Assembly: GCA_016490735.1 (NCBI GenBank)
Contig: JAEMWC010000001.1
Location: 4,037,001-4,101,000, forward strand
Direction: 5' to 3'
Origin: Pachyseris speciosa
Taxonomy: Eukaryota; Cnidaria; Anthozoa; Scleractinia; Pachyseridae
Length of the DNA: 64,000 bases
The notes beneath the pieces were generated by a model. The model saw nothing but the letters and a program-made list of their open reading frames with translations, made no database searches and had not been told where the DNA came from. Below are positions 47,400-64,000 of this stretch, in pieces; within the stretch, counting starts at the first letter, position 1, and each line of letters opens with the position of its first letter. The position numbers and the translations under genes are program-made.

Positions 47400-50300
47400 C
47401 TGTCTTGTTTAAACACATCAGTTGGGGTTTCACATTAATTTCTGAATCCGTATCTACCACATTTGTCTGTTGAAACATAAACAACAGGTTTTATTTTTCA
47501 GTCAGAAATAAAATGCACTGATTCCTCGGTGGTCCGCTTTGCTTTTTTTTATTATTGGTAACGAAAGAATTTCCCGTACTATTATATTTTTGTTTTTGTT
47601 TTAATTTAAACAATTAAAGAACTACGTTTTTACACTTCTGAGAGCTTCTTAAAAGTAACTGGAGACACCATGGGCATTTCCAAAGCAAGTGTTTGCAGAT
47701 CTTTGATGTCTGTCCTGCTGCCTTGTAAACGTTAATAATAATAACAATAACAACAACAACAACAACAATAATAATAACAATAATAATAATAACAATAATT
47801 TTATATTGTCCAAATTAACATAAAAATATGATCAAATGCACATTACGTAGATGAGAATTAAAATTAGTTAAAAAAATAAATAAAAATTAATATACGTATA
47901 TTGCAACAGACTAGATTACTTTTCCCAGTTCAAATGTGGAGATAATGTAAGATACCATTTCTGTTTTTTTAGTTTTGAAGACAACGCAACTTACATCCCC
48001 CAGTTCACCTTCCTCAAATTCTTATGGTAATAATGTTGTCAAACCTAGAGTCTGGCTTTGAAATGGCCAACCTTTCTTCATCTTTCAGGAAAGCTGGCTT
48101 CCCTAAGTGATTGCGGCAATTGGTGGCTCAAAAATGAAATAAACATCTATATGCTTGCCCCAAGGGTTTTCATGCTATAAATGTGATGGCAGTGTGCAGT
48201 GCACACATGCCATTCAGAAATTTTGTATGCAGGTGGTGTGGCTCTTTGCATGACTCAGCTGGTTTTAATGCCAGTGAGTTGCAAGTATACATATTCAGGG
48301 TGTAGGAGGCAGGAACCAGTGGCTTCAGGGAGACCGTATGTATGGAATTTCAGCTATACTTGATGACACTTTTACAACCAGATAATGCTATCACAGTTTC
48401 CCACACCAGGTACCAGAAGGCCCACACAAAAACAAGAAACATGAGCGAGAGCCACTGCAACTGCTGTATGTACCATATGTGCATTTATGACAACACTGCA
48501 CAGACAGCAAATGTAGAGGACCCACCCCAGCAAGCAGATGTGGCTGAGGATCCAAGGGAACTGATTGCTGGTGACAATGTAACTGGTTCATCAGGGAGAG
48601 ATCAACTTATACAAGATGCATTCAGTTAAAGTTAATTTTGTATGAATGGTTAATGCAATGTTTTTCAACTATACACAGAATACCCCAGCAGGAACAATTA
48701 TCATTTTCTGTGTGTGGCAAAATCAGATTAATATTTATTATATAAACACCAATGAAACACCAGGTGATATATCTTCACACGTGGAAACTAACGTCTTAAC
48801 ATGTGAAAAGATCACTGTTGCTATAGTTACCGGAACATAATAAATCACAATTTTCACAGCCCAAAAAATATTTAAAATAGTTTGGTATTTCATTGGTGTT
48901 TATATAATAAATAGAACATTACATGGCTAATTGGAGATACAAAATTTGTCTTACACTGTACCATGCTGAAAAATATTTCACTCCCTCATTTTGTGAATAA
49001 TAATCATGCCTGCCATTTATGAAAGAGGTCTATGGCAAAGAGAAAACAGAATTACAAAAAATTGGATCTGCCAAATTATGTAGTTTTAACTGCGACAGCA
49101 ATGGTACGAGAAAAGGTATAAGTTGTCAGCAAAATGAAATTGTTTCATTCCAGTGTATTAACTTTGATACAGAGACACTCAAAGACAGAATTATTTTTAT
49201 TTTCCTTTATTTCATATTATGTATGATAATAATAATAATCATCATCATCTTCATTATCATCATCAACATCATCAAACAAAGTTAAAATTTGAACCACAAC
49301 ATATACCTTTGTATTGTTGTAAAACCATATATTTTTAAATTCAATGACCCCAAAATTCAAAGGTCCAATGAAAATTCAGTTTCTTTATATCAGCCTTCTA
49401 ATGCAGACATACAAGTCTAGAATGTACAAGGCAGAAGCTGGTCTTGAGAGGTCTGTCGTACCGTGCAGTGTTTCTTAAAAATAATATTTAAATACAGTGC
49501 ATTACACACTGTACATATCTTCTTCCTTCTGTTCTTTAAAGCCAAATAATGGAATTCGGAAACCGGAATTTGAAAAATCCTATTTCTATAATATATTTAA
49601 ATAATAAATAAATAAACTAAAAAGTGACATAAAATTTCTAACCCCCCCCCCCCCCGTCTCCTAACTGCTTTACAATCAAAGAACAATGCAAAATACATTT
49701 GCCTTATCGCTTTACCTATCTGTCAACAGTATCATCACCAGCAACTAACCGCAAGACTAATTTAAATTATTTTTTCAAGCCGAATACAGTATTTTATTTG
49801 AAGTGTAGTTCATTCACGTCTTGAAGTGCTTTACTGGTACTTGGATGATGGATAATGCTGGACGGAAAAAGAGGACCTATGCAGAAGTTGTTCGTTCTGG
49901 TGGAGGCAGGTGGTGTTTTTCTTTACCTGTAAATCGCCTCGTCATATCAAAGTTAAGTGGGTTTAGAAGGGAAGAACACAATATCAACTGCATACCAAGT
50001 ACAGAGGATCCCTGAGCCCACCCATTTCTATGCCTGCCGCACAGGCTAAGGATCCCTAAGTATTATATTTCACTTGTCGGTTCCTAGATTTTCTAGTGCA
50101 TTTATCTAGCCAATTCATTAATTGGACTGTGATTTTTTAGTCCCCCCCCCCCCCCCCCACCCCTCCAGCTCCAACTTTCTCTAAACAACAACAACACACG
50201 CTTTAATGTCACAAGCATACTCTCGAACAGATTAATTTACCCACTGCGCGACACTTTCTAGTTCCTTTCTTCCGAATTCCGGGTTACGAATTCCATCATT

Positions 50301-50497
50301 CTTCCATTTCCAAGCTACTACTTCGAACTCAACATTTTCAGTTTGATATAACTTACCTACCTCCCACACTAGTGCGCTCTGAAATAATCTAAACACATCA
50401 TCTCCAGTTCAGTTATCCATGTTAAGTAAGAATAATATACTTCATAGACGATAAAGAGCAAGATTTGTCGAATAAACAAAAGGCAACTGAGTAGTAT
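47400..50497. other. Interval with microsatellites but no confident gene
   Basis: It holds an AAC/AAT microsatellite at about 47735-47800, an ATC/AAT-type one at 49225-49280, and poly-C runs near 49642-49656 and 50143-50158. A Cys-x2-Cys zinc-finger-like stretch (FVCRWCGSLHD, about 48215-48255) precedes a frame at 48342-48629 with an acidic end. These may be relics of one gene, but I see no clear splice structure or family. Confidence 0.45.
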
Positions 50498-50544
50498 AGT
50501 GTTTGGGGGTACGAAATCAATTGATCTCGTTTTCCCCAAACACT
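50498..50544. repeat. 47 bp near-perfect palindrome at the viral left boundary
   Basis: The arms AGTGTTTGGGG and CCCCAAACACT enclose a second palindrome, ACGA-A-ATCAATTGAT-C-TCGT. It starts with AG and ends with CT, as Polinton terminal repeats do. It is the first ordered structure before the viral genes and could be the element's end or a junction of two ends. Confidence 0.75.
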
Positions 50545-50561
50545 ATTCTGGTCTCGTATTC

Positions 50562-50711
50562 TGGAATATATAGTTATTTAATTTGATGGAATATATAGTT
50601 ATTTAATTTGATGGAATATATAGTTATTTAATTTGATGGAATATATAGTTATTTAATCTGATGGAACATATAGTTATTTAATTTGATGGAATCTATAGTT
50701 GCTCAATCTGA
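50562..50711. repeat. Six tandem 25 bp repeats
   Basis: The unit TGGAATATATAGTTATTTAA plus TTTGA repeats at 50562, 50587, 50612, 50637, 50662 and 50687, with the last units diverging. It lies between the palindrome and the first viral gene, where terminal-repeat or promoter elements would be expected. Confidence 0.92.
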
Positions 50712-50825
50712 TGTAACCAAGGTCAGCACACTTCATAAAATGCGTGACATTCTCGGAAAACAGGGAATGAGTCATCACCTATCATGTGTTAGCTGCATAA
50801 AGAAATAATATCTCATATAATATAG

Positions 50826-51389
50826 ATGAGTTGTAATTTAGTAATCCACAATGAATTAAAGAATATGGGAGAGTTCACATGTCCTTTTTGTGATCAGCTA
50901 TTGGTCAAAGTTGTTAAAAGTGTGAAAGCACCTTGCTGTGATAAACAGAAAATGTTTAATGATGATGGTGAGAATGTTTGTCTAAATTGTGGTTCAGTAC
51001 ACGGCTATGACTATTGTAAGGAGTACGTTGACTTTCATAATAATATGTATAAAATAAAGCGAAAATCTGTATATCACCGGAAGTACCATATTGAAAATGT
51101 GATAAATGGTATATGTTGCAAGAATAGATTTCAAATTTCAGTAAAAGATAAGGGTAAAATATTGAAAATATTCGAAGAGATAGACACTATCATCCCTTCG
51201 GTGAATAAGAATCGTAAAAGAATGATAAGCACCAAATTTATGCTTAAGCAAATATTCATAATGCTTGATCTACCATTTGATGAAATAATAGTTACAAGAT
51301 CAAAGAAGACATTAAAATTTTATGATCAATATTGGGTTGAGATTCTATTGTTGAGATTTGATAAGATTATTCGTATTATCAAGCAGTGA
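50826..51389 (+). CDS. VLTF3-like late transcription factor with zinc ribbon
   Basis: A 187-residue protein. The N-terminal half has a zinc-ribbon arrangement (CPFCDQ, CCDKQ and VCLNCGSVHGY). After it come YKIKRKSVYHRKYHIENVIN and VTRSKKTLKFYDQYWVEIL, which resemble the conserved parts of poxvirus late transcription factor VLTF3-type proteins carried by large DNA viruses and Polinton-like viruses. It would direct late gene transcription. Its 3' end overlaps the convergent gene at 51379 by 11 bases. The family assignment rests on motif memory. The upstream sequence TCTCATATAATATAG is only a weak form of the shared viral promoter. Confidence 0.62.
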   Translation: MSCNLVIHNELKNMGEFTCPFCDQLLVKVVKSVKAPCCDKQKMFNDDGENVCLNCGSVHGYDYCKEYVDFHNNMYKIKRKSVYHRKYHIENVINGICCKNRFQISVKDKGKILKIFEEIDTIIPSVNKNRKRMISTKFMLKQIFIMLDLPFDEIIVTRSKKTLKFYDQYWVEILLLRFDKIIRIIKQ

Positions 51390-51873
51390 ATTTTTCATCA
51401 TATTTCAGTAGGTACTTATCAATAATTGGACTATTATCAGTCACATAATCATCGATATTCTTCATTGAGATTTGTATACTTAAAGCATCAAAATCACCAC
51501 TTCTCAACTTGTCTTTTATTGAATTGAGTAGATGTTGATAGCTTTGATAAGCATATGTGCAATTCTGGATTTTCAAATCTAGGTTTTTATGCTTCATCCA
51601 CCCTTGTATCAAAAGTGATGCTGTACTGATGGCTACCAAACTAACACCACCGGTTGCCACGCTTGCAGCAAGACCACCTGTTGCAAATATAATAGACGCT
51701 GAATTACCAGCTAATTTCCATTTTTTAAACCGTTTAACCGCCTGTTTATGAGCCCAACACTTTCTGTGATATGTTCGGTAATAGGATTTTAATTCATTTA
51801 CCTGATCTTCTGTTAATTCATCTGAAATATGATTCCAGTTGAATATGCTTTTTCGCTCTTTCATATATATCAT
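51379..51873 (-). CDS. Predicted viral membrane protein
   Basis: A 164-residue protein with a charged N-terminus (YYRTYHRKCWAHKQAVKRF), one long hydrophobic stretch around residues 58-92 (IIFATGGLAASVATGGVSLV and onward) that could make two membrane passes, and a charged C-terminus. Proteins of this layout occur in related cnidarian elements, but I know no function. Its ATG directly follows the TAA of the upstream gene, so the two are probably on one transcript. Confidence 0.65.
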   Translation of the reverse strand: MIYMKERKSIFNWNHISDELTEDQVNELKSYYRTYHRKCWAHKQAVKRFKKWKLAGNSASIIFATGGLAASVATGGVSLVAISTASLLIQGWMKHKNLDLKIQNCTYAYQSYQHLLNSIKDKLRSGDFDALSIQISMKNIDDYVTDNSPIIDKYLLKYDEKFTA

Positions 51874-52293
51874 TTATACAATAATTCTATTAAAAAGACA
51901 ATACAGTATTCCTGACATCTGGCCGCATAATGGAGATCTTTTTCTTCGCTTTGTTGTGAGGTGCTTAGATATGGCATAACTATATCCACGGCCCAATGAA
52001 TAATCATTGTAAAATCTTCCATATGCATCATGGAGGATAGCATGAGTCTGTAATACATCAATCCAACCAAGAGTATGTTCTAAGAAGTTTGATAAACAAC
52101 CGCTTCCGGGACCAATAAGGCCTATGTCTGTGTGAGATTTTATGATATCATCTATAGTAATATATCCTTTGAAATGCTTGTTGTATAAAAATTTGTATAC
52201 AAGACAGGATTTTAATATAGAATCATCTAAATTGGGGTAGTCTTTTTTGTAAATCTTGAAAACATAAGATACATATCTCAATAAGTCTTTCAT
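51874..52293 (-). CDS. Small viral protein with a His-Asp motif
   Basis: A 139-residue intact frame. It contains GLIGPGSGCLSNFLEH followed by THAILHDAYGRFYNDY and a C-terminal CGQMSGILYC. The glycine-rich loop followed by His-Asp and tyrosine recalls the calcium loop and catalytic His-Asp of phospholipase A2, but the match is too weak to assert. A TCTAA promoter motif lies 11 bases before the ATG. Confidence 0.6.
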   Translation of the reverse strand: MKDLLRYVSYVFKIYKKDYPNLDDSILKSCLVYKFLYNKHFKGYITIDDIIKSHTDIGLIGPGSGCLSNFLEHTLGWIDVLQTHAILHDAYGRFYNDYSLGRGYSYAISKHLTTKRRKRSPLCGQMSGILYCLFNRIIV

Positions 52294-52310
52294 ATATCAG
52301 TTGTTTAGAC
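52294..52310 (-). promoter_or_regulatory. TCTAA late-promoter-like motif
   Basis: TCTAA (minus strand, 52309-52305) then 11 bases, ACAACTGATAT, then the ATG of the 139-residue gene. Confidence 0.6.
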
Positions 52311-52316
52311 AAAAAT

Positions 52317-53237
52317 TTAAAGATTAAAATAATCTTCAATGAAACGATACATATTTCTCAGTTCTTGGTTAGTTAGTGATTTCTGCCAAACAGCAAAAGC
52401 ATAAAGATCCATTTCACAAAAATTAATTGCAGAACCATCTGTATGAACTTGACAACCAATAAACATTTCTTGTGCACTACCAGTCAATGTTGCTGAAATT
52501 GATCCTGTTCCAACTGGTGTCATTGATGAAATACCTCTGAAAAATTCCATATTATGACCATCAACTCGAACAGTAAAAACTTCAATATTTCCCGTCAGAT
52601 TAGCCAAAGAAGAAACAGCAAGTCTTCCATTTAATGTAGAACCGAAATCAATATAACATGCTCCATTAATCCAAGGCAGATGAACACCAAATCTAACAGC
52701 ACCCTTACCCCATTGAAATTGTGATTGATATTTTGTTTGTTTTGTGTTTGCAATGATTATAACAGTACAAGTATTTCCACTCTGTCCAGCAACTTTAGAA
52801 ACATCAAATGAACTGTTCTCCAAGTAGTCATCATTGCCATCAAAACGTATGAAAAACTTTTTCTTGACTGAATCTCTCAGTAACAATGGTTTTTTCGAAT
52901 TAGAAGTTTGTGTAAAAGTGACATTATTAACAGGATCCAGCCAACTAGAAACTCTATCATCAGCATCAGTTGTCAATACAGACAGAGATGGTATCAAAGC
53001 AATTGAAATTCCATCAAGAACAGGTATACCAGGCAGTGAATTTGAAATAACAAAAGTTGCTCTATCTAACTTCAAATCTAGTTGTTTTTTTGTTACACAA
53101 TCATCATCCGATGTTCCTTCATTAACATTTGTTATTTTATTTCCTCCAATATCAAAATGCTCATCTTGTGTTAATGTAAATCCATCACCTTTATCACCTT
53201 TATTGTCTTGATTTAGTGAATGATTGAATACACCCAT
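52317..53237 (-). CDS. Fibre-like protein with a concanavalin/LamG-type lectin domain
   Basis: A 306-residue protein. The first 60 residues (MGVFNHSLNQDNKGDKGDGF, then LTQDEHFDIGGNKITN) match the start and post-collagen region of the 758-residue fibre protein. The rest is a predicted jelly-roll lectin-like domain (SSWLDPVNN, FFIRFDGNDDYLENSSF, MDLYAFAVWQKSLTNQELRN), as in LamG-like domains. A common virion-anchoring head joined to a different tip suggests an alternative receptor-binding protein, by inference. The frame is intact. Confidence 0.72.
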   Translation of the reverse strand: MGVFNHSLNQDNKGDKGDGFTLTQDEHFDIGGNKITNVNEGTSDDDCVTKKQLDLKLDRATFVISNSLPGIPVLDGISIALIPSLSVLTTDADDRVSSWLDPVNNVTFTQTSNSKKPLLLRDSVKKKFFIRFDGNDDYLENSSFDVSKVAGQSGNTCTVIIIANTKQTKYQSQFQWGKGAVRFGVHLPWINGACYIDFGSTLNGRLAVSSLANLTGNIEVFTVRVDGHNMEFFRGISSMTPVGTGSISATLTGSAQEMFIGCQVHTDGSAINFCEMDLYAFAVWQKSLTNQELRNMYRFIEDYFNL

Positions 53238-53255
53238 TATAATATTAATTTAGAT
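53238..53255 (-). promoter_or_regulatory. TCTAA late-promoter-like motif
   Basis: TCTAA (53254-53250) then 12 bases, ATTAATATTATA, then the ATG of the 306-residue fibre-like gene. Confidence 0.6.
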
Positions 53256-54595
53256 TAATTCATGACCACTTCAAGTGTGAATGCTGTATCAAATGCTCCA
53301 CTATTGGGATGTGAATAGTCAATTATAAGATAGCCTCTCGATAATGATTTATTGACGTCAACCGTTGTGATGTTTCTACCCGCAGCACCATGTCTGTATT
53401 CAAAAATTGTTGCTGGTAATGGCAAATTTCCAGCACCTTCAGCTTTTGTCTTGAAGTAGAATATTCCGGGTTTTGTTCCTTGTATTACATACATATTCTT
53501 AATATGAAAGTTATTGTTATGAATGACTAAAAAATCAGAGCCATTTATCAATACAGGCTTTAAAGCATTCTTATTATGTCCTTGTTTGGCTTTGACAGAG
53601 CAATTTAAATATTGTATTTGACCGATTATTCCATTCCCATTCAAATCTAGATCACCTCCTAATTTCGGCCTGTAAAGAGCAAATCCACCCAAATCGAAAG
53701 CCGTTTCCATGATTACACCTGTAACGCTTGAACGAAATAGATTCAAACTATTATTATGAATTCTATACCCATTCAGATTTAAATCACCACCAAGTTTAGC
53801 CTCTTTTATTAAATAGCTGTTCATATTAATATTATTTAGCATTGTCAATTCACCATTGTCTCCACCAAACAACCAATTTTCATTTTCTTTCACATCAAAA
53901 CCATTCAAATCTAAATCAGTTTGTAATTGTATTGTTTCATTCACGATTTTGAAAGGTTCAGAGAAGTCGTAAACACTTGATGGAACGTCTGCTGCTTCGA
54001 AATCAATACCATATGCAACACAATGAACTTTGTACTTATTTGGATAAGTTGGGTTAGCATTAATATGAATCGTACAATATAAATATTCAGGTGGTGAACT
54101 TGCTGATGGTTTTTCAATCCATAATAAATATCTCGAATGATCTTCATTTCTGTTGTCAAATTTTCTCCCTACAGTTTTATGAATTGTGATTCCACCAGTT
54201 GCATTGAATGTTACACTACTAAGACTCATTCCTTCATAATCAGGAAATAGCCATTCAAGAATGAAAGTGTATTTTCCATCTTTTATTTTGTACATATTAA
54301 AACCAATTCTAGCTCTGTAAATATGATTAGCTTCTTTATTCAAGTCTATATCAATGACCTTCTTTGAAATCAAATGTGGTGACCGAGGTAAATTGACATA
54401 TCCATTAACTGTCAAGCCATATTCAGTGCTAATTTCATCGATATCATTCATCAAATATTTGAAAGCATTCTTTGGATGAGAAGCAGATGAAATATGACTT
54501 TTTTCTAATTGATCTAAATTTACGGCATCGGTTTTATTTGTTCCTTCTTTTAAGTTTGCGAGTGTGTTATCACCCATGTCAATATCACCAGCCAT
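53255..54595 (-). pseudogene. Fibre-like protein, downstream segment (frameshifted from the gene before it)
   Basis: An open frame of 446 residues beginning AGDIDMGDNTLANLKEGTNK, a phage-tail-fibre-like linker that normally follows other repeats of the kind found upstream. It overlaps the end of the 758-residue frame in another phase at 54550-54595, and no TCTAA promoter precedes it, so it is most likely the C-terminal part of that gene after a one-base shift. It contains a third diverged copy of the roughly 190-residue domain (NAFKYLMNDIDEISTEYGL) and repeats of GGDLNLNGYRI and GGDLDLNGNGI. Confidence 0.7.
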
Positions 54596-56826
54596 TCGAC
54601 CTCCGAAAGAAAAGGGGCCTGGTCAACATATCTTTTGTTGGCAGCATCTGTGTTAGCAGTTGGTGTTGCACAGTTGATCACTTTGTTACCAGCCAGATTT
54701 AAATTAGCAGTCATTTCTTGTGTTCCATCTCGAAGTAGAGTTTGACCGATACTGCTTTTTGATGCGAGATTAGTGTCAATATATGATTTATTCACAAGAT
54801 CTGCTGGTTGGTTTCCTATCCCATGGCCTCTAATAATAAACCCCCCAAAATCCTGATTGCCGGTCATTATAACACTTCCATCTTTTTTAAGAAATTGAGA
54901 AACATCAATACCAGCAATTTCAGCATCAACATACTTTTTGTTTACAGCATCTTGTGGGTTTGAGGGGGTATCCTGCAGGTTGATGATTTTGTTCAATTTC
55001 ATGTCAATATTACTACCAAACGCAACATGGCCGTTTTCAATTTCATAAGCTGGGTCATGGAGAAAGTAAGACAAATTGGTATGATAGCCATAGGCCCCAT
55101 AAACGATGATATGTGTTTTGGTGTTAGACGCGGGAGCTGTGCTAAAAAGTAAAACCTCAATTAACGCTTGACCGCCACCAGTTTTTTCGATTCGGAAAAG
55201 CTTCTTCATATAACCATCAACATACGGGGTTTTGAGAAAAGGTTTTTGAAATGGCTGTCCGACGTCACGTAAGTTCAATGTGCGAAGATCGAGCCCAATT
55301 GTAGTTTGGCGTGGGTCTGATGGTGAGTAAAACTCAACAACAAAAGTGTACTGACTGTTTCTCAAAGATGTCACATTAAAACGAATTTTGGATGTAAAGT
55401 TGCCTCTTCGTTTGATGAAAAAAGACAATGATGACTTGTTTATGTGATAAGGTGATCTGTCAAAATTCTCAATTTGAAGGTTTGTTGCACCACTGACTGC
55501 AGAAGACTTGGATATGTCTTTTAACAGAAAAGCGAATGGGTTGCGTTGAGCTCCTGATGCTGAAAAAACAAGGTCATCAACATACTTTTTGTTGGCAGAA
55601 TCTTTGTCAGAAGTTGGAGCCTCAACATTTGTTATTTTATTGTCACCCATGTCAAGATCACCAGTCATTGCAACACTTCCATCTTTTTTAAGAAATGGTG
55701 AAACATCAATGCCAGTAATTCCAGCAATTTCAGTATCAACATACCCCTTTGTGGCTGAATCATTGTTTGCTGTTGGCGCTGCTACATTAGTCAATTTGTT
55801 ACCTCCAAGATTCAAATCAGAAGTCATTGCAACGCTTCCATCTTTTTTCACAAAGTTATTATTGAGATATGTTTTATCCGCTTTACCTATTATAATATCA
55901 TCAACGTATTTTCTATTTGCACAGTCTTGTGGAAGTATAGGGCTTGCAACATTGACTATTCTATTAAAACTCATTTTAAGCTCACGATCAAATACAATTC
56001 TTCCTTCTTCTATTTCAAAAGCTGGGTCGTGAATATGTGATAAAATGATATTAGAAAATCCATAAACACCATAAACTATGACATGATGTTTGGCATTATT
56101 TGTTAAATATGGTGAGATCAACAATAATTCCATTGATGTCTGACCAACTCTCGTTTTTTCAAGGAAGAATATTCTCTTGAGATAACCATCAACAAGATGA
56201 GTCTTTGGAAATGCTCTTTTTATCGAATCCTTTCCTTCAATAAAATTAGACGACAGATTGTCGTCATCAACTGTTGCATTGTTTGGATTACCATTAGTAT
56301 AAAATTCAACAACTAAAGTGTACTTTGAAACTTCCAATTGTGACAAATCAAAACGAAGAACAGTTGTAAGACCAGCAGAAGGAATAACAAAAGACAAGGC
56401 TTTTTTATTTATTGAGTAAGGGCTTTTATTATAGACTTCTAATTGTAGATTATTCGCATTTCTAAGAATAGTTGTTTTTGATACATCTTCAAGAAGAAAT
56501 TTAAATGGATTAACACGTGTTCCTTCAATTGATAAAACAGCATCATTAACATATCCCAAGTTAGTAGAATCATAATGATTTACTGGATCATCAATATTTG
56601 TCAAACGTTTATTTTCAATGTCATAATTACCATCTTGTGTTAATTTGAATCCATCACCTTTGGGACCAACAGCTCCAGTAGCTCCTTGTGGACCAATTGC
56701 ACCTGTATTACCTTTTGGACCTCTATCACCTTTTTCACCTTTGGGACCAATTGGACCTGCAGGGCCTCTTTCACCAGTTCCAGTTTCTGTTTTATCTTGA
56801 TTTATTTGAGCATTAAAAACTCCCAT
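54550..56826 (-). CDS. Collagen-like fibre protein (N-terminal segment)
   Basis: An open frame of 758 residues. It starts MGVFNAQINQDKTETGTG, has about 13 Gly-X-Y triplets (residues 18-56, for example GPKGEKGDRGPKG), and then repeated linkers of the type MTGDLDMGDNKITNV followed by KKYVDD, which resemble trimeric phage tail-fibre repeats. Two copies of a roughly 190-residue domain (NPFKFLLEDVSKTT and NPFAFLLKDISKSS) alternate with the linkers. The design suggests a trimeric attachment fibre. The frame ends out of phase at 54550 and the adjacent 446-residue frame continues the pattern. Confidence 0.8.
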   Translation of the reverse strand: MGVFNAQINQDKTETGTGERGPAGPIGPKGEKGDRGPKGNTGAIGPQGATGAVGPKGDGFKLTQDGNYDIENKRLTNIDDPVNHYDSTNLGYVNDAVLSIEGTRVNPFKFLLEDVSKTTILRNANNLQLEVYNKSPYSINKKALSFVIPSAGLTTVLRFDLSQLEVSKYTLVVEFYTNGNPNNATVDDDNLSSNFIEGKDSIKRAFPKTHLVDGYLKRIFFLEKTRVGQTSMELLLISPYLTNNAKHHVIVYGVYGFSNIILSHIHDPAFEIEEGRIVFDRELKMSFNRIVNVASPILPQDCANRKYVDDIIIGKADKTYLNNNFVKKDGSVAMTSDLNLGGNKLTNVAAPTANNDSATKGYVDTEIAGITGIDVSPFLKKDGSVAMTGDLDMGDNKITNVEAPTSDKDSANKKYVDDLVFSASGAQRNPFAFLLKDISKSSAVSGATNLQIENFDRSPYHINKSSLSFFIKRRGNFTSKIRFNVTSLRNSQYTFVVEFYSPSDPRQTTIGLDLRTLNLRDVGQPFQKPFLKTPYVDGYMKKLFRIEKTGGGQALIEVLLFSTAPASNTKTHIIVYGAYGYHTNLSYFLHDPAYEIENGHVAFGSNIDMKLNKIINLQDTPSNPQDAVNKKYVDAEIAGIDVSQFLKKDGSVIMTGNQDFGGFIIRGHGIGNQPADLVNKSYIDTNLASKSSIGQTLLRDGTQEMTANLNLAGNKVINCATPTANTDAANKRYVDQAPFLSEVEWLVILTWVITHSQT

Positions 56827-56844
56827 TATACAATCTTGTTAGAT
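56827..56844 (-). promoter_or_regulatory. TCTAA late-promoter-like motif
   Basis: TCTAA (56843-56839) then 12 bases, CAAGATTGTATA, then the ATG of the collagen-like fibre gene. Confidence 0.65.
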
Positions 56845-57092
56845 TAATCTTCTTCATCACTACTGCTGTCATCATCATCTTCCAAGAATTCAGGTGGTTT
56901 GGTTTAATAGATGACAGGTAGTCTCTTATTGTTTTTCAATACTTTTTGTGTCCTCCTGTATACTTCCATTTTCATTTTTTCAGCGATTTCAAATGGTGTT
57001 TCAACAGCAGCGTCAGGTTTGATCAATTTTTCCATTCTTTCTGTTCTGGGATTCTCCTGTTTTTCTGGATTTTAAAAATTGTTGATTGCCAT
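56844..57092 (-). pseudogene. Small acidic-tailed viral protein with two in-frame TAA stops
   Basis: An ATG at 57092 opens MAINNF, then TAA, then a frame with RMEKLIKPDAAVETPFEIAE and VYRRTQKVLKNNKRLPVIY, a second TAA, and the acidic end PPEFLEDDDDSSSDEED before the final TAA at 56844. The frame is otherwise continuous for 82 codons and lies between the ATPase and fibre genes with its own TCTAA signal, so it looks like a real gene with two nonsense changes. I know no function. Confidence 0.6.
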
Positions 57093-57104
57093 ATAATATT
57101 AGAT
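57093..57104 (-). promoter_or_regulatory. TCTAA late-promoter-like motif (short spacing)
   Basis: TCTAA (57103-57099) then TATTAT then the ATG at 57092; the spacing is 6 bases rather than 11-12. It also overlaps the end of the ATPase gene. Confidence 0.5.
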
Positions 57105-57742
57105 TAAACAGCACCATAAAAATTTCTCTTGATTGTCTTCATCGGCTTGTCAACATAACAGAAGGAATAAGGTTTCTTGGTGGCTTCAATGTATTTCTTC
57201 TTGTCTATTCCAAGTTCTTGTGCAATCAAGTTCCTTTCTCTTGAGGATGGGAAATCATAAAGGCAGAAGTGACTGCAATTGAGTCTGATTGATTTTGGGC
57301 ATCCATAGAATGACTGTGTGAGATATATGACTGAACAGTTCTTGTGTCTCCCCTGAATGAAATAGCTGATTATTTGATCTTGTTTCTTGTCAGTCACGAA
57401 ATCATCAAAAACAACCAATCGCTGCAAATCTGTGTCTTTTATTTGTTCAACTGGTAATATCTCTTCTTGACTGCAAACCAAGGCAGGATATCCAATGTGA
57501 CTGCTTATTTCATCCATTACTTTCCGAAGATATTTGTACTTGTCTTGATCTAAATTTTTTGCATAAAGATGTATCTGATCATAATAAACCAATGGTTCCA
57601 TAATCAGATGCATGAACAATGTTGTCTTTCCAGATCCAGAATTACCAGCCAGCAGCATCCTGAAAGTGTCTTTTGGCATATACGGATACAACTGTCTGAA
57701 TGAATTCTTTAAACCCTGAATATCATAATTAGGGATTTCCAT
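57104..57742 (-). CDS. Genome-packaging ATPase (FtsK/HerA type)
   Basis: A 212-residue protein with a Walker A loop MLLAGNSGSGKTTLFMHLIM near residue 30 and a Walker B strand LQRLVVFDDFV near residue 105, then a sensor-like stretch CSVIYLTQSFYGCPKSI. Length and motifs fit the A32-like packaging ATPases of Polintons and adintoviruses, which pump the genome into the capsid. The frame is intact. It is transcribed divergently from the gene at 57779. Confidence 0.9.
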   Translation of the reverse strand: MEIPNYDIQGLKNSFRQLYPYMPKDTFRMLLAGNSGSGKTTLFMHLIMEPLVYYDQIHLYAKNLDQDKYKYLRKVMDEISSHIGYPALVCSQEEILPVEQIKDTDLQRLVVFDDFVTDKKQDQIISYFIQGRHKNCSVIYLTQSFYGCPKSIRLNCSHFCLYDFPSSRERNLIAQELGIDKKKYIEATKKPYSFCYVDKPMKTIKRNFYGAV

Positions 57743-57778
57743 ATGTAAATAGTTTAGATTAGTCTAACACAATTGTAT
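57743..57778. promoter_or_regulatory. Bidirectional TCTAA promoter between ATPase and coiled-coil gene
   Basis: TTTAGATTAGTCTAA (about 57753-57767) holds two TCTAA motifs facing outward. Each is 11 bases from its ATG: at 57742 on the minus strand and 57779 on the plus strand. The symmetric arrangement strongly supports the motif as a promoter. Confidence 0.7.
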
Positions 57779-58621
57779 ATGGATATAGAACGAATGAAAA
57801 GTCTTCTTAAAAGTGGAATTGAAGCCGGAAATAAAACTGGAGAAGTTCGTGATGTTATCAAGACTTATGAATACAGAAAACAGGATGCTTATGATACATC
57901 AGAATTACTGAAACCCTCTATTGATGTCCAGAAGAGTGTGAAAGAAAGTGTCGACGAAAAACAGGATGAAGTTATTAAACAGTTGAAAAAGAATCAAAAA
58001 GCCTTGACATCTGGTTTCGAAGATCTTATGCTGATGAACACGTTACCTGAATCAGTACCAATGAAAACAACATTACCAATTGATTACAAACCTAAAATGA
58101 TGACTGAAACAGAAGCACCATATAAGTCGAATCTTGATAAAGGTTTTTCACTTGAGGATGTTAAGGTATTACAGGAATATGAATTGTCTCCTCCAACAAC
58201 AATTTTAAAAAGGATAATGGATGGTGAAATCGACATCAACAAGTATGATAAAATGATTGGTGAAATAACCAAACAACTTGGAAGACAAAAAGCTCATCTA
58301 TCAACAACCAAAACAAATAGGGATAAAAATAAAGAAAAGATATATGAATTGACTCAAAGGATCAAACTAATACAAAAGTACCGAAAAAGAATTGGCGCCG
58401 TTGAGGAAGGTGCATCAACTATTGGTTCAGGCATGGGTTCAAGGGATGCATTTTTGGGTGACATGCTTTCAAGACTGCAGTTACTTGGTGGGTCTATTTC
58501 AGCCGGCAACAATAGCATGGGTGTAAGAAATGAATTCACAAATATATTGCATACATTGAACAGACTGGGAATCCTGAAAACCGGTGAGTTGAATAAAATA
58601 ATGATGAAATATCTAATGTAA
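57779..58621 (+). CDS. Coiled-coil viral protein, probable virion component
   Basis: The ATG at 57779 (MDIERMKSLLKSGIEAGNKT) is preferred over earlier TTG codons because it has the TCTAA signal at the usual spacing. The 280-residue protein is charged and helical, with a coiled coil near residues 170-210 (LGRQKAHLSTTKTNRDKNKE) and a conserved-looking glycine-rich C-terminus (STIGSGMGSRDAFLGDMLSR). It stands directly before the penton gene. I do not recognise a named family. Confidence 0.75.
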   Translation: MDIERMKSLLKSGIEAGNKTGEVRDVIKTYEYRKQDAYDTSELLKPSIDVQKSVKESVDEKQDEVIKQLKKNQKALTSGFEDLMLMNTLPESVPMKTTLPIDYKPKMMTETEAPYKSNLDKGFSLEDVKVLQEYELSPPTTILKRIMDGEIDINKYDKMIGEITKQLGRQKAHLSTTKTNRDKNKEKIYELTQRIKLIQKYRKRIGAVEEGASTIGSGMGSRDAFLGDMLSRLQLLGGSISAGNNSMGVRNEFTNILHTLNRLGILKTGELNKIMMKYLM

Positions 58622-58627
58622 AAGTAT
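58612..58627 (+). promoter_or_regulatory. TCTAA late-promoter-like motif
   Basis: TCTAA (58612-58616), inside the end of the preceding gene, then TGTAAAAGTAT, 11 bases, then the ATG of the penton-like gene. Confidence 0.6.
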
Positions 58628-59407
58628 ATGACAGAAATTTCATTACGATTCAACAGTAAAAACAGAGACAAAATTGGTGTCAGCAAGAGTCATGATTTTG
58701 AAAAAAGATTCAATACACCTCTTAAATTAACGAATGATTTGAAATATGAAATGGCTGTGAATGTTATCAATATGACATATAGTTGGTACAATATCAGAGA
58801 TATTTTTGGGAATAATCAAATTAAATACAGCTATGACAAAGGTGTAAACTGGGAAACAATAACATTCGTTAACGGGATGTATTCATACGACGATATCAAT
58901 AGTTACATTCATGAGTATATGAGAAAAAATAGCCATATACTGAATCCATCTGAAACAGACAAATCAAAATTCAAGTATGGTATTAATATAACTTTCGTTT
59001 TATCAACATACCGCATTTTGATTGAACTCAATGAAAATTATCGTGTGGATCTCAGAAATAATGATTTCAGAAAACTTATCGGTTTCGATTCAAAATTAGT
59101 TTCAGCCAGAGAATATGGAACAAATCTACCTGACATTACAAGAGGAGTAGATGAAATTTATATCAATTGTGATTTGGTGACAGATAGCATTGTTGATGGA
59201 AATAGCACAAATACAATCGCTGTTATTCCAGTCACAAATCTAGTCAGAAGTTTACCTTTCACTTACAAACCTCGTTTTCTTTCATGGAATCCTGTCTCAA
59301 CACATAATATCAGCTCAATACGCTTTTATGTCACAGACTCTTCTGGAGCTCCAGTCGATTTGAATGGGATAGATTGGTATATTGAGTTATTCTTGAGAGA
59401 GACATAA
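58628..59407 (+). CDS. Penton-like minor capsid protein (single jelly roll)
   Basis: A 259-residue intact protein. The sequence is rich in predicted beta strands, with YEMAVNVINMTYSWYNIRDI near the start and a C-terminal SSIRFYVTDSSGAPVDLNG followed by WYIELFLRET. Length, position between ATPase and major capsid gene, and the YEMAV...WYN pattern fit the penton protein (called PY) of Polintons, which closes the capsid vertices. The fold assignment is inference. Confidence 0.72.
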   Translation: MTEISLRFNSKNRDKIGVSKSHDFEKRFNTPLKLTNDLKYEMAVNVINMTYSWYNIRDIFGNNQIKYSYDKGVNWETITFVNGMYSYDDINSYIHEYMRKNSHILNPSETDKSKFKYGINITFVLSTYRILIELNENYRVDLRNNDFRKLIGFDSKLVSAREYGTNLPDITRGVDEIYINCDLVTDSIVDGNSTNTIAVIPVTNLVRSLPFTYKPRFLSWNPVSTHNISSIRFYVTDSSGAPVDLNGIDWYIELFLRET

Positions 59408-59426
59408 TTATAAAACCTAATAGTAT

Positions 59427-59669
59427 ATGAAACGGTTTGAGTTTAAAAAATATGAACAACATGGTGAAGGTATTGTGACTGATATGATCAAAACAGCTGG
59501 AAAAAAAGCAGCCACAACAATTAGTGAACACGTAGGTAAAAAAGCTGGTGACAAAATCATAGAACTTTTGAAAAAGAGAAAAAGTGGAAACAAGAGTGGA
59601 ACTGAGAGTGTGAGCCAGACTGGTGGTTTAATCAAAAGAAAGAGAGGTCGACCACGTAAAATAAAATAA
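59427..59669 (+). CDS. Small basic AT-hook protein
   Basis: An 80-residue protein: an N-terminal stretch (FKKYEQHGEGIVTDMIKTAG), a helical middle (KKAGDKIIELLKKRK) and a C-terminal AT hook (KRKRGRPRKIK) that would bind the minor groove of AT-rich DNA. It could condense viral DNA in the particle, like adenovirus core proteins. Its promoter-like motif is degenerate, CCTAA with a 6-base spacing. Confidence 0.75.
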   Translation: MKRFEFKKYEQHGEGIVTDMIKTAGKKAATTISEHVGKKAGDKIIELLKKRKSGNKSGTESVSQTGGLIKRKRGRPRKIK

Positions 59670-59675
59670 CTTTTA

Positions 59676-59691
59676 TCTAACACAATAATAT
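59676..59691 (+). promoter_or_regulatory. TCTAA late-promoter-like motif
   Basis: TCTAA (59676-59680) then CACAATAATAT, 11 bases, then the ATG of the major capsid gene. Confidence 0.65.
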
Positions 59692-60982
59692 ATGTCAAAC
59701 TATCGTGACTCAAAATATATCGAAAGATATGAAGATGTAGTGTTCGAACTAGAGACAGCACTTAATACTGTAGTAGCAAACAATGCTCATCAGAGTAAAA
59801 CAGGTTACCGTTTCATTGTTGATAACAGTGGAGAGACTACACCATTTGACTGGTATAATGCCCGTTTTAATGTCGATTTCATTGTGAAAAAGCTTGCAGA
59901 TGGAGACCACATTGTTGCTGACGATCGAAATGGTATTGTCAATTCAATTCACGCTCTTATTAACACCATTAATGTAAAAATGAATGGTCTTGATGTTTAT
60001 GAGTGCAGAGATGCCAACCAAGCCACAAATATTAAGTCATTGCTTGAGTATTCACAGGGTTATGCTGTAAGTCAGGGAACCAATGAGTTCTTCTATCTTG
60101 ACGACAAAAGACAAGCTGAAGACAGAGTGGCCCAGGTGGCTAATTATAACAAAGGATTCGCAGCTCGTAAAGCACTGTTGAATGGTGCAGCCGGTAAAGT
60201 AAATGCAGAGCTTGCATTGAACAGATACGGTTTTTTTCAAGAGCTTTTGGGATGAACTTATGCCTAACTCAAAAGTAGAGATAAAATTGACACTTGAGAG
60301 TGATGCCAATTTGATTTGGCAAGCTGCTGATAATTGCCGTGTGGTACTAACTAAATTCCAGCTAATAGTTCCTCGCATTGTTTTCAATTCTGCGGGAAAG
60401 TCCTTATACATGAGCAAGTATCTTGACAACAGAAAGTGGACTTACATGAGAGAATTGATTGAGAGAGGCAATTCAACAAGACAACAGACTGCCAATTTCC
60501 GTATTTCCACAGCAATAAACAAACCCAGGCATGTCTTTGTATTCATCATCAATGATGCCAATGATGCATCTCAGACAGCCAATAAATTTCTCTATAACAC
60601 ATTCTCAGTTGCAAATAACCAAACTTTGACTGATTGTTATCTTGAGGTTGGCAACGGAAATGATTATCCAGAGCTTCGTTATAAACCATCAACAGAACCA
60701 ACAAGAGTATTTAGAGATGTTTTGAAATATGTTCATGCGGTTAATGATTTCAGTGACAGTACCCTTCTCAACAGGGACAATTTCGGTACAATATTCCCTT
60801 TTGTTTATTTCGATCTGACAAAACAGAAACAGGATATTAAAGATGGAATGACAAAACTGACTTTCAAATACACTTTGAGTGCTGCAACAAATGCTGATTA
60901 CAGTGTGTATGCACTGGTCCTCTATGAGCAGGATATTGAGATGAGAAAGACTGATGGAAAATTAATTCTTAGATCAATGTAA
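59692..60982 (+). pseudogene. Double-jelly-roll major capsid protein, split by a frameshift
   Basis: Two frames cover the gene: 59692-60255 (starts MSNYRDSKYIERYEDVVFEL, includes TTPFDWYNARFNVDFIVKKL) and 60260-60982 (includes WQAADNCRVVLTKFQLIVPR, NKPRHVFVFIINDANDASQT and GTIFPFVYFDLTKQK). Together they have the length and order of the hexon-like major capsid protein of cnidarian Polinton/adintovirus elements. The first frame stops at TGA 60253-60255 and the second is in another phase, which one inserted or deleted base near CTTTTGG (about 60243-60250) would explain. The stop falls near the junction of the two jelly rolls. A programmed shift is less likely. Confidence 0.88.
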
Positions 60983-61136
60983 ATTAAATAAATTAAATAA
61001 ATTAAATAAATAAATTAAATAAATAAATTAAATAAATTAAATAAATTAAATAAATTAAATAATTAAATAAATAAATTGAATAATTAAATTAAATGATTGT
61101 TTGTATTAAATACAATTTAGTATAAACATATATTAT
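60983..61136. repeat. AAAT/AATTAAAT low-complexity tract before the protease gene
   Basis: AATTAAATAAAT-type repeats fill about 60983-61092, followed by a non-repetitive AT-rich leader ending ATATTATATG at the next start codon. No TCTAA is seen, which makes this the one major late gene without the motif; the nearest variant is TTTAGTATAAA. Confidence 0.75.
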
Positions 61137-62438
61137 ATGACTACTTATCATCCTCATGGAGTAAGACTTTCAGGAAGTCAGAAGGAAAGGCTTGCAAAAG
61201 CTATACAAACAAATTCACCGGTAACATTGAGACTCGCACATGGAGATCTCACTGGAGGTGATCAAATGATGTTGACAAAAACACAGATAAAAAAATTAGC
61301 CAAATCACAGAGAAATGGAACAGGTGCTGATGTAAAGATATCCAAAGCACAGATCAGAAAATCAGTCCAAGAAGGAGGTTCTCTTTGGTCCAGTCTTTTT
61401 TCACTTGGAACAAGACTATTGCCTTATGCAGGTAAAGCAGTAGCTAAAGCGGCTCCAGCATTGGCTACAGGTGCTCTTTCTTCATTAGCAAGTCTCGGCA
61501 TTGATAAACTATTTGGAAAGAAACAAAAAGGAGGATTCATTATTCCCAATAAAAACTTGCCCCAACTATTGAATTTTAGAAATTTATTGAATGTGAGACA
61601 AATGGCTGATCTTGTAAATGCGATGCAGTCTGGTGGACAACTTGCTATCAAACCAACAAAAGCGCAGACTGGAAAGGGTATTGGAACAATACTGGCGAGT
61701 ATTGGTATCCCATTAGCCATTAATGCAGTCAAGGGGTTATTTGGAAAAGGTTTGCATGTTGAAAGCAGCCGTCCAAGACGGTCAATACCTGTTCATGTTC
61801 CAGATGACATTGTACCCAGAAAGAAAGGTGGGAAACATGCTATGATTCCATGGCAATCTCCTCCTGTTTTTGGTACATGGAATAACCCAATCGGTTATGG
61901 AATGAAAAAAAAAAAGAAAAGGAAAAGGACTTCTACTGGGCAAAAACAGTCCATTCAATTCAATCCCCATACTAGGAACCATTTTGTAAACAAACCCTTA
62001 TCCAACTTTGATTTAATCAATTGGGTTAAACAACTTGGAATAAAACATTTTAGAGGAGTATTTTCAAGAGACAATCTTCCTAGACAAATAAAAAAGAATG
62101 AATGTGGGATAGTCAATCTTGATTCCAAAATTGGACCTGGTACTCACTGGGTATGTTATCGAATTGGTGATAGATACTGTGAATACTTTGACTCATTTGG
62201 TTTAATGATGCCAACAGAAGTACAGAAATACATGGCTACAAGTGGAAAACAACTTGAATACTCTGGAGATGAGATACAAGAAAGAGATTCAGTCTTGTGT
62301 GGATATTGGTGTTTGTACTATCTTCTTGAGAGACAAAAAGGCAGATCCATTCTTAATACAATACATAATGCTGAATTTGATCCAACAGACACAAGAGTCA
62401 ATCACAGATTCATCATAGACTACTTTAAAAATATCTAA
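61137..62438 (+). CDS. Virion core protein fused to an adenovirus-type cysteine protease
   Basis: A 433-residue intact frame. Residues 1-70 are basic (VRLSGSQKERLAKAIQTNSP and KTQIKKLAKSQRN). Residues 80-110 and 175-200 hold hydrophobic glycine/alanine segments (GTILASIGIPLAINAVKGLF), like membrane-active virion proteins. After a lysine run (near 260) comes the protease: FRGVFSRDNLPRQIKKNECG, the histidine in GPGTHWVCYRIG, the acid in YCEYFDSFGL, and the glutamine and cysteine in EIQERDSVLCGYWC. It would process capsid precursors. In related elements I recall these as adjacent parts; whether the fusion is normal cannot be settled here. Confidence 0.85.
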   Translation: MTTYHPHGVRLSGSQKERLAKAIQTNSPVTLRLAHGDLTGGDQMMLTKTQIKKLAKSQRNGTGADVKISKAQIRKSVQEGGSLWSSLFSLGTRLLPYAGKAVAKAAPALATGALSSLASLGIDKLFGKKQKGGFIIPNKNLPQLLNFRNLLNVRQMADLVNAMQSGGQLAIKPTKAQTGKGIGTILASIGIPLAINAVKGLFGKGLHVESSRPRRSIPVHVPDDIVPRKKGGKHAMIPWQSPPVFGTWNNPIGYGMKKKKKRKRTSTGQKQSIQFNPHTRNHFVNKPLSNFDLINWVKQLGIKHFRGVFSRDNLPRQIKKNECGIVNLDSKIGPGTHWVCYRIGDRYCEYFDSFGLMMPTEVQKYMATSGKQLEYSGDEIQERDSVLCGYWCLYYLLERQKGRSILNTIHNAEFDPTDTRVNHRFIIDYFKNI

Positions 62439-62450
62439 CTTAATGGTATA
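62434..62450 (+). promoter_or_regulatory. TCTAA late-promoter-like motif
   Basis: TCTAA (62434-62438), overlapping the protease stop codon, then CTTAATGGTATA, 12 bases, then the ATG at 62451. Confidence 0.65.
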
Positions 62451-62612
62451 ATGGTAAAATCATATTGTGTGAAACAGAAGAAGCAGACTGAATGTGTACC
62501 AGGAAGCGAAACATACCAAAAGACTAAAAATGGAAGAACCATGATGAAATGCAAGTGTGCTGAATGTGGAATCACAAAGACTAAATTTGTCAGAAATCGG
62601 GAAACTGAATAG
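62451..62612 (+). CDS. Zinc-ribbon miniprotein
   Basis: A 53-residue frame starting MVKSYCVKQKKQTECVPGSE. It has the pattern YC...NGRTMMKCKCAECGITK typical of short DUF5679-like zinc ribbons found beside capsid genes in Polinton-like elements, though one expected cysteine of the first pair appears as glutamine (CVKQ). It has its own TCTAA signal and precedes the PLA2 gene; the original gene may have continued further downstream. Confidence 0.65.
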   Translation: MVKSYCVKQKKQTECVPGSETYQKTKNGRTMMKCKCAECGITKTKFVRNRETE

Positions 62613-63214
62613 CCCGTCTGAAGGGGCGGGCATACTAGATTCAGCCGCAGATATGGCGCTAACAGGATTCTTAGAACATGGAGTCCCTTATTTAGCGAAG
62701 AAGGGTGTTGAAATGGGTAGATATTATGCTTCTGAAGCAATGAGAAATCCAAAGCTGCAAAAGAAATTAATTGACAAAGGACTTTCCCTCGCAAAACCTG
62801 CAATCACAAAGGTTGGGTCAGAAGCTTTGAAAACAACTCTCAACAAAAGTGAGACCAAATATTCGTTACAAAACAGATATCAAAGGATTAGATTATGGCG
62901 GTGCTATTGACATTCATAAGGTTATTGGCAAGCTTCCTAAACCGAAAAGTGGATGGACACCCGGAAAGTATAAATACATGGGACCTTATAATCCCCTCGA
63001 TAAACAGTTAGAGTATGATAAAAACACAGGTGAGGTCTTGAAATGGAATGTACAACCTTATAACAAAGTGGATGAAATAGCAGCTTACCATGATATTTGT
63101 TATGATATGGGAAAAAATAAAGGTGAATGTGATAGAACAATGGTCGAGTCACTAGATCAAATACCATATGGTGAGATGCCAAAATGGGGTCAAACAGCTA
63201 GATTTCTTAATTGA
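62557..63214 (+). pseudogene. PLA2-domain minor virion protein, split by a frameshift
   Basis: Frame 62557-62910 (no ATG at its start) has GVPYLAKKGVEMGRYYASEA and KLIDKGLSLAKPAITKVGSE. Frame 62849-63214 in another phase continues with DIHKVIGKLPKPKSGWTPGK and a viral-type phospholipase A2 core: the calcium-loop-like YMGPYNPLDKQ and the catalytic AAYHDICYDMG. Such domains help parvovirus-type particles leave endosomes, and here presumably act in entry. The switch of frame near 62850-62900 is best explained by an indel. Confidence 0.8.
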
Positions 63215-64000
63215 CAAAAAACAGAAACTTGGTCTTTGGTGTTTCAAAAAACGGAAAAAGCCGTCGAGTGAAGAAAACTGGCAAGAAAAAACTAGCTGAT
63301 GAATTACATGCACCCATAAAACGAAATTTCACTCGGCGGCGTGTCATTGTAAATAAATTGATGAAAATATGGGCAAGTGATCTAGTTGAAATGCAACAGT
63401 TTAGTAAATGGATAAAAGGTTATCGATATCTTCTTATGGTTATTGATGTCTTCAGCAAATATGGTTGGATTGTCCCATTGAAGGATAAGAAAGGTGAATC
63501 TGTCCACTGAAGCATTCAAAACAATATTCAAGGAAGGCAGAAAACCACAGTATTTATGGGTCGACAAGGGAAAAGAGTTTTACAACAAACACTTGAAGGA
63601 CTTGCTAGAGAAACATAGTGTACAGATGTACTCAACTGAGAATGAGGAGAAGTCATCAGTAGTTGAAAGATGGAATCGAACAATGAAGTCCAAAATGTGG
63701 AAGCAGTTCACTGTTCAAGGTAATACACAGTATTTAGACATGTTACCAAAATTAGTGAAACAGTATAATAATACCAAACATTCAAGCACAAAGATGACAC
63801 CCGTTGAAGCATCTGATAAGAGGAATGAAGGAACTGTTTACTTCAATTTGTATGGTGATATGAAAACATTAAAACAGAAACCGAAATTCAAAATAGGTGA
63901 TAAGGTTCGAATATCTAAGTATAAACGGAATGTGTTCGACAAGGGCTATACACCAAATTGGACTGAAGAAGTGTTTACAGTTGATAAGATCCAGTACACT
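63211..64000 (+). pseudogene. Retrovirus-like DDE integrase, frameshifted and cut by the window end
   Basis: Frame 63211-63510 contains KIWASDLVEMQQFSKWIKGY (first Asp) and LLMVIDVFSKYGWIVPLKDK, then stops at TGA about 63508. A second frame from about 63502 to the window end contains YLWVDKGKEFYNKHL (second Asp), STENEEKSSVVERWNRTMKS (catalytic Glu region), YNNTKHSSTKMTPVEASD and a C-terminal KFKIGDKVRISKYKR chromatin-binding-like barrel. It is the integrase of Polinton/adintovirus elements, inserting linear DNA with about 6 bp duplications. The shift lies at 63495-63510. No ATG is clear at the start. Confidence 0.88.

Follow-up and report, generated by a model that had tools for sequence, protein, structure and literature searches.

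Late promoters with a TCTA core are known for Cafeteria roenbergensis virus (CroV), for ChlorV and for mavirus-like elements (EMALE type 4), and searches for the CroV/ChlorV late motif covered the 40 bases preceding a gene (PMC8547959, PMC5294985, PMC13196603). In mavirus, the CroV late motif is reported to precede all genes (PMC6723459). The poxvirus late promoter is outlined as a core, a spacer of 5-7 bp and a TAAAT initiator (PMC5294985). Here, we analyse a comparable signal, TCTAA close upstream of start codons, in an integrated element of polinton/adintovirus type in the genome of the scleractinian Pachyseris speciosa; the window, that is, the whole stretch of 64,000 nucleotides examined, comprises positions 4,037,001 to 4,101,000 of contig JAEMWC010000001.1 (assembly GCA_016490735.1, forward strand). 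What is new is that TCTAA marks the particle module of this element and not all of its genes. No promoter class of animal polintons or adintoviruses is described in the titles, opening lines of abstracts and passages of the literature found, and, to our knowledge, it is not known how polintons and adintoviruses, having no polymerase of their own, time the expression of their particle genes.

The element shares with CroV, ChlorV, mavirus and EMALE type 4 a TCTA core with AT-rich flanks close upstream of the start codon of genes that are late there and presumably late here. The link to CroV and mavirus drawn in the original prediction is no more than a likeness of sequence: TCTA is only four bases long, and the all-genes pattern of mavirus is not matched. 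Unlike these systems, the element has a longer core, TCTAAY, and a TAT-ATG end, encodes its own VLTF3-like protein, and carries TCTAA at particle-module genes and largely not at regulatory or polymerase genes. The poxvirus late promoter, so far as it is outlined, resembles the signal in its upstream core, short spacer, initiator at the gene start and association with a protein of the VLTF3 family (PF04947), but the initiator differs: TAT stands before the ATG in most starts, not TAAAT(G), and no viral RNA polymerase was recognised in the element.

TCTAA at the starts of the particle module

All eight starts at which TCTAA had been placed 11 or 12 bases before the ATG (52293, 53237, 56826, 57742, 57779, 58628, 59692 and 62451) do carry it, and the shorter spacing of 6 bases was found again at 57092 (TCTAA) and 59427 (CCTAA). 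Two accompanying statements were borne out only in part. TAT stands directly before the ATG at four starts and TATA at three, while 57742 has CAT; and the rule that the motif always points to a gene holds for the spaced copies only, since among 32 TCTAA on both strands of 50300-62600, 8 have an ATG 11-12 bases downstream (all of them named starts), 1 has it at 6 bases, and 23 lie elsewhere, preceding no named start.

Counted at -16/-17, TCTAA precedes 8/15 candidate starts vs. 0/537 other ATGs (Fisher p 3e-14). The enrichment withstood comparison with background: 2000 draws of 15 random ATGs reached at most 4, against 8 observed, and Markov controls of order 1, 2 and 3 (1000 sets each) reached at best 4, 5 and 6, where both kinds of control were free to use any pentamer in any two-position window. 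Regardless of position, TCTAA shows no enrichment over the whole window (136 observed vs. 183 expected); position, not abundance, carries the signal. Seven candidate starts lack TCTAA at -16/-17. Of these, 61137 has TATAA at -16, and 50826 and 51873 have no motif, while 60260, in the rear part of the capsid gene, and 54595, inside the fibre gene, are probably not real starts, because the capsid gene is one open frame of 427-428 codons in the related elements L065 and L066, and the fibre gene is a single frame in L065 (L065:4749-7973, 1074 codons, collagen 2.7e-56). This frame holds both parts of the window's fibre region, and ORF 53255-54595 (ORF, open reading frame) is probably the rear of the same fibre gene as 54550-56826. 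The L065 fibre is also similar to YadA-stalk and phage tail-fibre N-terminal regions.

The signal is kept in divergent related elements of the same genome. In six of them (L062-L067, read as 10-kb stretches), TCTAA occurs at -18..-8 in 28/40 particle-module starts vs. 21/2461 other ATGs, and, within one mismatch at -17..-11, in 36/40 vs. 385/2461. A motif-free search of the 40 starts returned ATCTA at -17 (24/40) and TCTAA at -16 (22/40), where the null maximum was 6 (1000 draws). At 30 further loci, TCTAA was found at 80/99 starts vs. 42/4321 other ATGs: fibre 22/22, penton-like gene 21/22, gene 57779 26/27, ATPase 11/27 and gene 59427 0/1, gene recovery being uneven (27, 27, 22, 22 and 1 starts). 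ATPase starts without TCTAA have TCCAA (13/27) or, once, TTTAA at the same place; the TCCAA group comprises L032, L034, L039-L043, L047, L048, L050, L052, L056 and L060, and its divergent neighbour gene keeps TCTAA in 10/11 cases read. The 30 loci came from a second ATPase list, which may include copies of the window's own family; at the 27/30 with a start found, the ATPase shares 67-92% identity with that of the window.

At conserved ATPase residues, L062-L067 and the window agree in only 56-65% of third codon positions, so that weakly constrained sequence has largely drifted while TCTAA stayed. Because the elements compared are related and all come from one genome, the counts are not independent trials. 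Scans of IMG/VR with the protease ORF, the ATPase alignment, the penton-like ORF and alignment, and the VLTF3 alignment returned no relative, so all upstream-DNA comparisons lie within this one host genome. Taken together, the TCTAA signal is real and conserved, and it is probably functional; what had been called a shared promoter is a shared promoter-like signal conserved in divergent elements, to which a promoter role may be ascribed.

Among 148 starts, 107 are distinct, and their surroundings read roughly WATCTAAYMTAAT, followed by TAT-ATG. TCTAA lies at -17 to -11 in 79/107, and the last three bases before the ATG agree with TAT in 94% (T at -3), 79% (A at -2) and 97% (T at -1) of the 107. 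The spacing depends on the gene: mostly -16, but -14 for gene 57779 and, in one group, -11 for the penton-like gene. The copies at 57754-57758 and 57763-57767 would be the paired cores of a putative divergent promoter of 36 bp (57743-57778). The preceding ORF may end within or just after TCTAA, as at 62434-62438 and at 58612-58616 (ORF end 58621, next ATG 58628). An upstream gene that ends at the motif leaves no room for a long leader, and the very short leaders foreseen by the original prediction would fit this layout, which has room for nothing longer.

The features are listed below; L061 continues the window (L061:1 = window 63001), and the element spans about window 50490 to L061:7340.

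50490..50790, no strand: terminal inverted repeat of the left end, beginning with AG and containing 25-bp tandem units; partner at about L061:7040-7340 (window 70040-70340, beyond the window); first base placed from the common AG and the duplicated flank, inner end approximate
50797..50803, +: ATAAAGA, a weak form of the putative early-class TTAAAGA, 29 bases before the VLTF3-like ATG, not scored as a strict match
50826..51389, +: VLTF3-like factor, 187 aa, without TCTAA (PF04947, E 1.1e-6, 28.9 bits vs. cut-off 25)
51379..51873, -: ORF of 164 aa, no motif
51874..52293, -: ORF of 139 aa, TCTAA in the window copy, missing from 4/4 orthologous starts read
52305..52309, -: TCTAA, 11 bases before ATG 52293
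52317..53237, -: short fibre-like protein, 306 aa (PHROG tail fibre, E 1.6e-4)
53250..53254, -: TCTAA, 12 bases before ATG 53237
53255..56826, -: long collagen-like fibre gene region, overlapping ORFs 54550-56826 (758 aa) and 53255-54595 (Collagen 1.4e-5, 25.2 bits, below cut-off 27.2)
56839..56843, -: TCTAA, 12 bases before ATG 56826
56830..57092, -: small gene, stop at codon 7 in the window copy
57099..57103, -: TCTAA, 6 bases before ATG 57092
57104..57742, -: A32-type packaging ATPase, 212 aa (PF04665, E 1.3e-16)
57754..57758, -: TCTAA, 11 bases before ATG 57742
57763..57767, +: TCTAA, 11 bases before ATG 57779
57779..58621, +: ORF of 280 aa, conserved neighbour of the ATPase gene
58612..58616, +: TCTAA, 11 bases before ATG 58628, within the upstream ORF
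58628..59407, +: penton-like protein, 259 aa, named from gene order alone (306 homologues)
59416..59420, +: CCTAA, 6 bases before ATG 59427
59427..59669, +: ORF of 80 aa, basic
59676..59680, +: TCTAA, 11 bases before ATG 59692
59692..60982, +: major capsid protein gene, double jelly roll candidate (PF21738), interrupted near 60255 in the window copy; intact copies exist
61121..61125, +: TATAA (one mismatch), at -16 of ATG 61137
61137..62438, +: protein of 433 aa with an adenain-like protease C part (weak matches to PF00770, E 0.038, and to PDB adenovirus proteases, E 0.013)
62434..62438, +: TCTAA, 12 bases before ATG 62451, overlapping the end of the protease ORF
62451..63214, +: DUF5679-like start, then phospholipase A2-like domain, frames broken (PF18930 2.3e-5, 24.9 bits, cut-off 27; PF08398 1.5e-8)
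63211..64000, +: integrase, frames broken, running on to L061:1216 with a chromodomain (rve 0.0095; Chromo 3.7e-7)
From L061:1366, beyond the window: BRO-N (Bro-N 7.5e-10)
From L061:2538, beyond the window: DNA polymerase B, PolB (DNA_pol_B_2 1.3e-9)

A further TCTAA stands 5 bases before an ATG with an immediate stop at window 64228-64232 (L061:1228), and a similar spacer follows the BRO gene of L070; the copy at 64228 could be a leftover promoter or belong to a non-coding transcript.

Two putative promoter classes and a candidate factor

TCTAA is distributed by gene. At -18..-8 it is found in 0/16 VLTF3 and PolB starts (the VLTF3-like gene never has it, 0/14) vs. 35/49 particle-module starts, the latter including the genes at 57779 and 59427, which have no assigned function, and the penton-like gene, named by position. 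The reverse holds for TTAAAGA at -45..-18, which precedes 11/16 VLTF3 and PolB starts (9/14 and 2/2; seen at -25 to -34) vs. 1/49 particle-module starts and 18/2496 in the background. For L085 and L086 the VLTF3 start was guessed, and at six places (L081-L085, L090) less than 60 bases of upstream sequence was available; BRO (12 starts) and the ORFs at 51873 and 52293 (9 starts) were left out of this two-class test. Since TTAAAGA had first been noticed in part of the tested sequences, PolB was checked at ten further places: two had no readable in-frame start and were excluded, and TCTAA was present in 0/8 readable starts. The class split is thus firm for VLTF3 and good for PolB, and does not reach every non-particle gene. 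A special ATATTTAAAACRCAG element common to BRO and PolB of the window family was also considered; it failed across the families read and was dropped for TTAAAGA.

The VLTF3-like protein, proposed in the original prediction as a possible dedicated late factor, passes the Pfam gathering score, and 17/21 aligned members match PF04947 at E <= 0.05. Its N part is zinc-ribbon-like, and residues ~78-187 are predicted to adopt a TFIIB-type cyclin fold; the alignment gave no credible match to PDB sequences. Family, predicted fold and the lack of the motif at its own gene all strengthen that proposal, under which the protein would act in late transcription. Apparent N-terminal extensions of ~40 residues, missing in the window copy, are seen at L063:110, L064:854 and L081-L083. 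A VLTF3 gene reported from the genome of the sea anemone Exaiptasia was regarded as a lone gene of giant-virus type and placed with Asfarviridae (PMC5294986); such genes could also have come from elements of the present kind.

We lean, with modest confidence, towards a cascade from early to late genes: the VLTF3-like factor would guide RNA polymerase to the TCTAA...TAT-ATG late promoters of particle genes. In such a cascade, TCTAA would be the core of a late-class particle-gene promoter, 11-17 bases upstream (approximately WATCTAAYMTAAT...TAT-ATG), whose AT-rich initiator runs into the start codon, so that transcripts would be nearly leaderless. The polymerase would most simply be host RNA polymerase II (Pol II), because none was recognised by profile scans among the scanned ORFs of the element. 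As VLTF3 and PolB stand under a different, TATA-like motif (TTAAAGA, 25-34 bases upstream), the host machinery could read them first, and their products may then permit replication and late expression. With its zinc ribbon and cyclin parts, the VLTF3-like protein might serve as a substitute TFIIB that recognises the TCTAA promoter and brings the polymerase.

Several observations weigh against this cascade. Support from the held-out PolB starts is partial: 3 of the 8 have strict TTAAAGA (-27 to -30), 4 a shorter TTAAGA and 1 neither, with two of the four TTAAGA stretches identical; the identical places are L094 and L096. The PolB of L100, a broken frame, is an exception with TCTAA at -16. BRO is mixed, with TCTAA at -18..-8 in 4/12 starts, slightly further out in three more (L073, L075 and L070), and TTAAAGA in 3/12. 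Finally, the pairing of protein and motif is an inference. Elsewhere, gene 51873 has neither TCTAA nor TTAAAGA (0/4), and gene 52293 has TCTAA in the window copy only (1/5); the positions used for 51873 (L062, L063) and 52293 (L063, L064, L067) were 3-9 bases off the ATG, which leaves the absence of a nearby TCTAA unaffected. TCTAA as the promoter of every gene is rejected, as VLTF3 has none, and so is a clean early/late split by function. Because BRO is mixed and 52293 variable, the claim is limited to particle-module genes vs. VLTF3 and most PolB.

Other readings of the signal

A plain host signal is, among the rivals, the one that survives best, though we consider it unlikely: TCTAA...TAT-ATG would be an initiator read by Pol II and host factors alone, and the VLTF3-like protein would act elsewhere. 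Pol II does read AT-rich initiators, and the indirect nature of the protein-motif pairing speaks for this reading. It leaves aside, however, that the factor's own gene avoids TCTAA, and that a VLTF3-like protein is conserved whose structural model resembles a basal initiation factor.

Less probable still is a virophage-like dependence, in which TCTAA would be read by the late machinery of a co-infecting giant virus, as CroV is presumed to read the TCTA of mavirus. The TCTA core and AT-rich setting are the same as in the CroV/ChlorV late motif (PMC8547959, PMC13196603, PMC5294985), and the failure to recognise an RNA polymerase among the scanned ORFs would suit such dependence. However, while the motif precedes all mavirus genes (PMC6723459), here VLTF3 is without it and so is PolB (0/2, then 0/8 readable, L100 being the exception); a helper is less likely because the element keeps TCTAA off its own factor gene, and indeed because it carries a VLTF3-like protein at all. 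The giant-virus capsid family PF16903 gave no match in the host genome, but the controls were likewise matchless, so that absence is not established.

A signal acting in RNA, either a branch point for splicing or trans-splicing or a translation element, seems very improbable. TCTAAY, and TCTAAC in particular, resembles metazoan branch points, and trans-splicing occurs in some cnidarians. Against this, an AG acceptor lies between motif and ATG in just 9/36 and 23/80 motif-bearing starts, counts on which a splice or trans-splice signal was rejected; the spacing is too short, and T at -3 is anti-Kozak. Finally, AT-rich chance or plain common descent of a few spacer sequences can be set aside almost entirely, for although TCTAA forms tandem units in places (L047) and the copies are related, chance is ruled out by the random-ATG and Markov controls in the window and in L062-L067, and the same motif precedes non-homologous genes on both strands and is conserved across families far apart at third codon positions.

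The carrier element and the meaning of the signal

The carrier is an integrated polinton/adintovirus-type element of 19.85 kb. Polintons end in inverted repeats starting AG and are flanked by target duplications of 5-6 bp; here, terminal inverted repeats of ~300 bp start with AG, and the 6-bp duplication CAACTG lies on both flanks. The two repeats are nearly identical, differing by one 25-bp tandem unit and one 27-bp duplication; the 25-bp units lie at window 50562-50690, and their number is unequal at the two ends. As in Polinton/Maverick elements and adintoviruses, the element encodes an FtsK/A32-type packaging ATPase, candidates for a double-jelly-roll capsid protein and an adenain-like protease, a retroviral-type integrase with chromodomain (rve 7.4e-5 for the L068 piece and 0.0095 for the window piece, both under the curated cut-off) and a viral/organellar-type PolB (PF03175, E 1.3e-9, at L061:4691-5209; many other copies have a 1268-codon open frame), together with a DUF5679/phospholipase A2 protein and a BRO-N protein. 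Unlike them, it has a VLTF3-like gene and a putative two-class promoter plan. The capsid candidate matches PF21738 at E 1.6e-4 and 1.9e-4 (21 bits, below the cut-off of 27), with no PDB sequence match; cnidarian capsid genes are reported outside the main Maverick-Polinton cluster (PMC10120064). The product of 58628 has no Pfam match over the cut-off and no credible PDB sequence match, NCBIfam profiles gave nothing informative, and phage records held no relative of the ATPase.

In the host genome searched (984 Mb, 2368 contigs), scoring of 150 among 3879 first-look candidates gave at least 150 ATPase copies at ~100% protein identity. Thirty same-protein copies (L001-L030) differ from window 57104-57742 in 2-4% of bases, with 558 synonymous and 0 non-synonymous codon differences, the zero being partly built in by selection on protein identity; the pattern hints at strong purifying selection among the copies, much as a replicating virus would show. 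At L069 (C250:270929-273329), the place expected to hold the BRO-PolB part of the element is taken by a LINE-type reverse transcriptase. Anthozoans are the main carriers of GFP-like genes, and the host genome has 82 GFP-family matches (E <= 0.001), mostly concentrated on a few contigs, vs. 0/14 control genomes, which by itself makes an anthozoan host most likely; GFP-like exon clusters lie on contigs C114, C138, C316 and C719.

As a marker, TCTAA is useful: it picks out true starts and can help to reveal where genes are broken (60260, 54595). More interesting than the likeness to mavirus is the class split together with a TFIIB-like factor: a shared late signal and a matching candidate factor make the timing question testable. 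Tentatively, and with doubt prevailing, animal polintons may run a full early-to-late programme without viral polymerase or helper, one self-encoded TFIIB-like factor re-aiming host Pol II at TCTAA; TCTA and VLTF3 would then be an ancient late module of polintons, virophages and giant viruses, with virophages having passed the factor's job to a helper. If the pairing of factor and motif is true, elements resident in animal genomes would be linked to giant viruses and virophages through the way in which late genes are transcribed.

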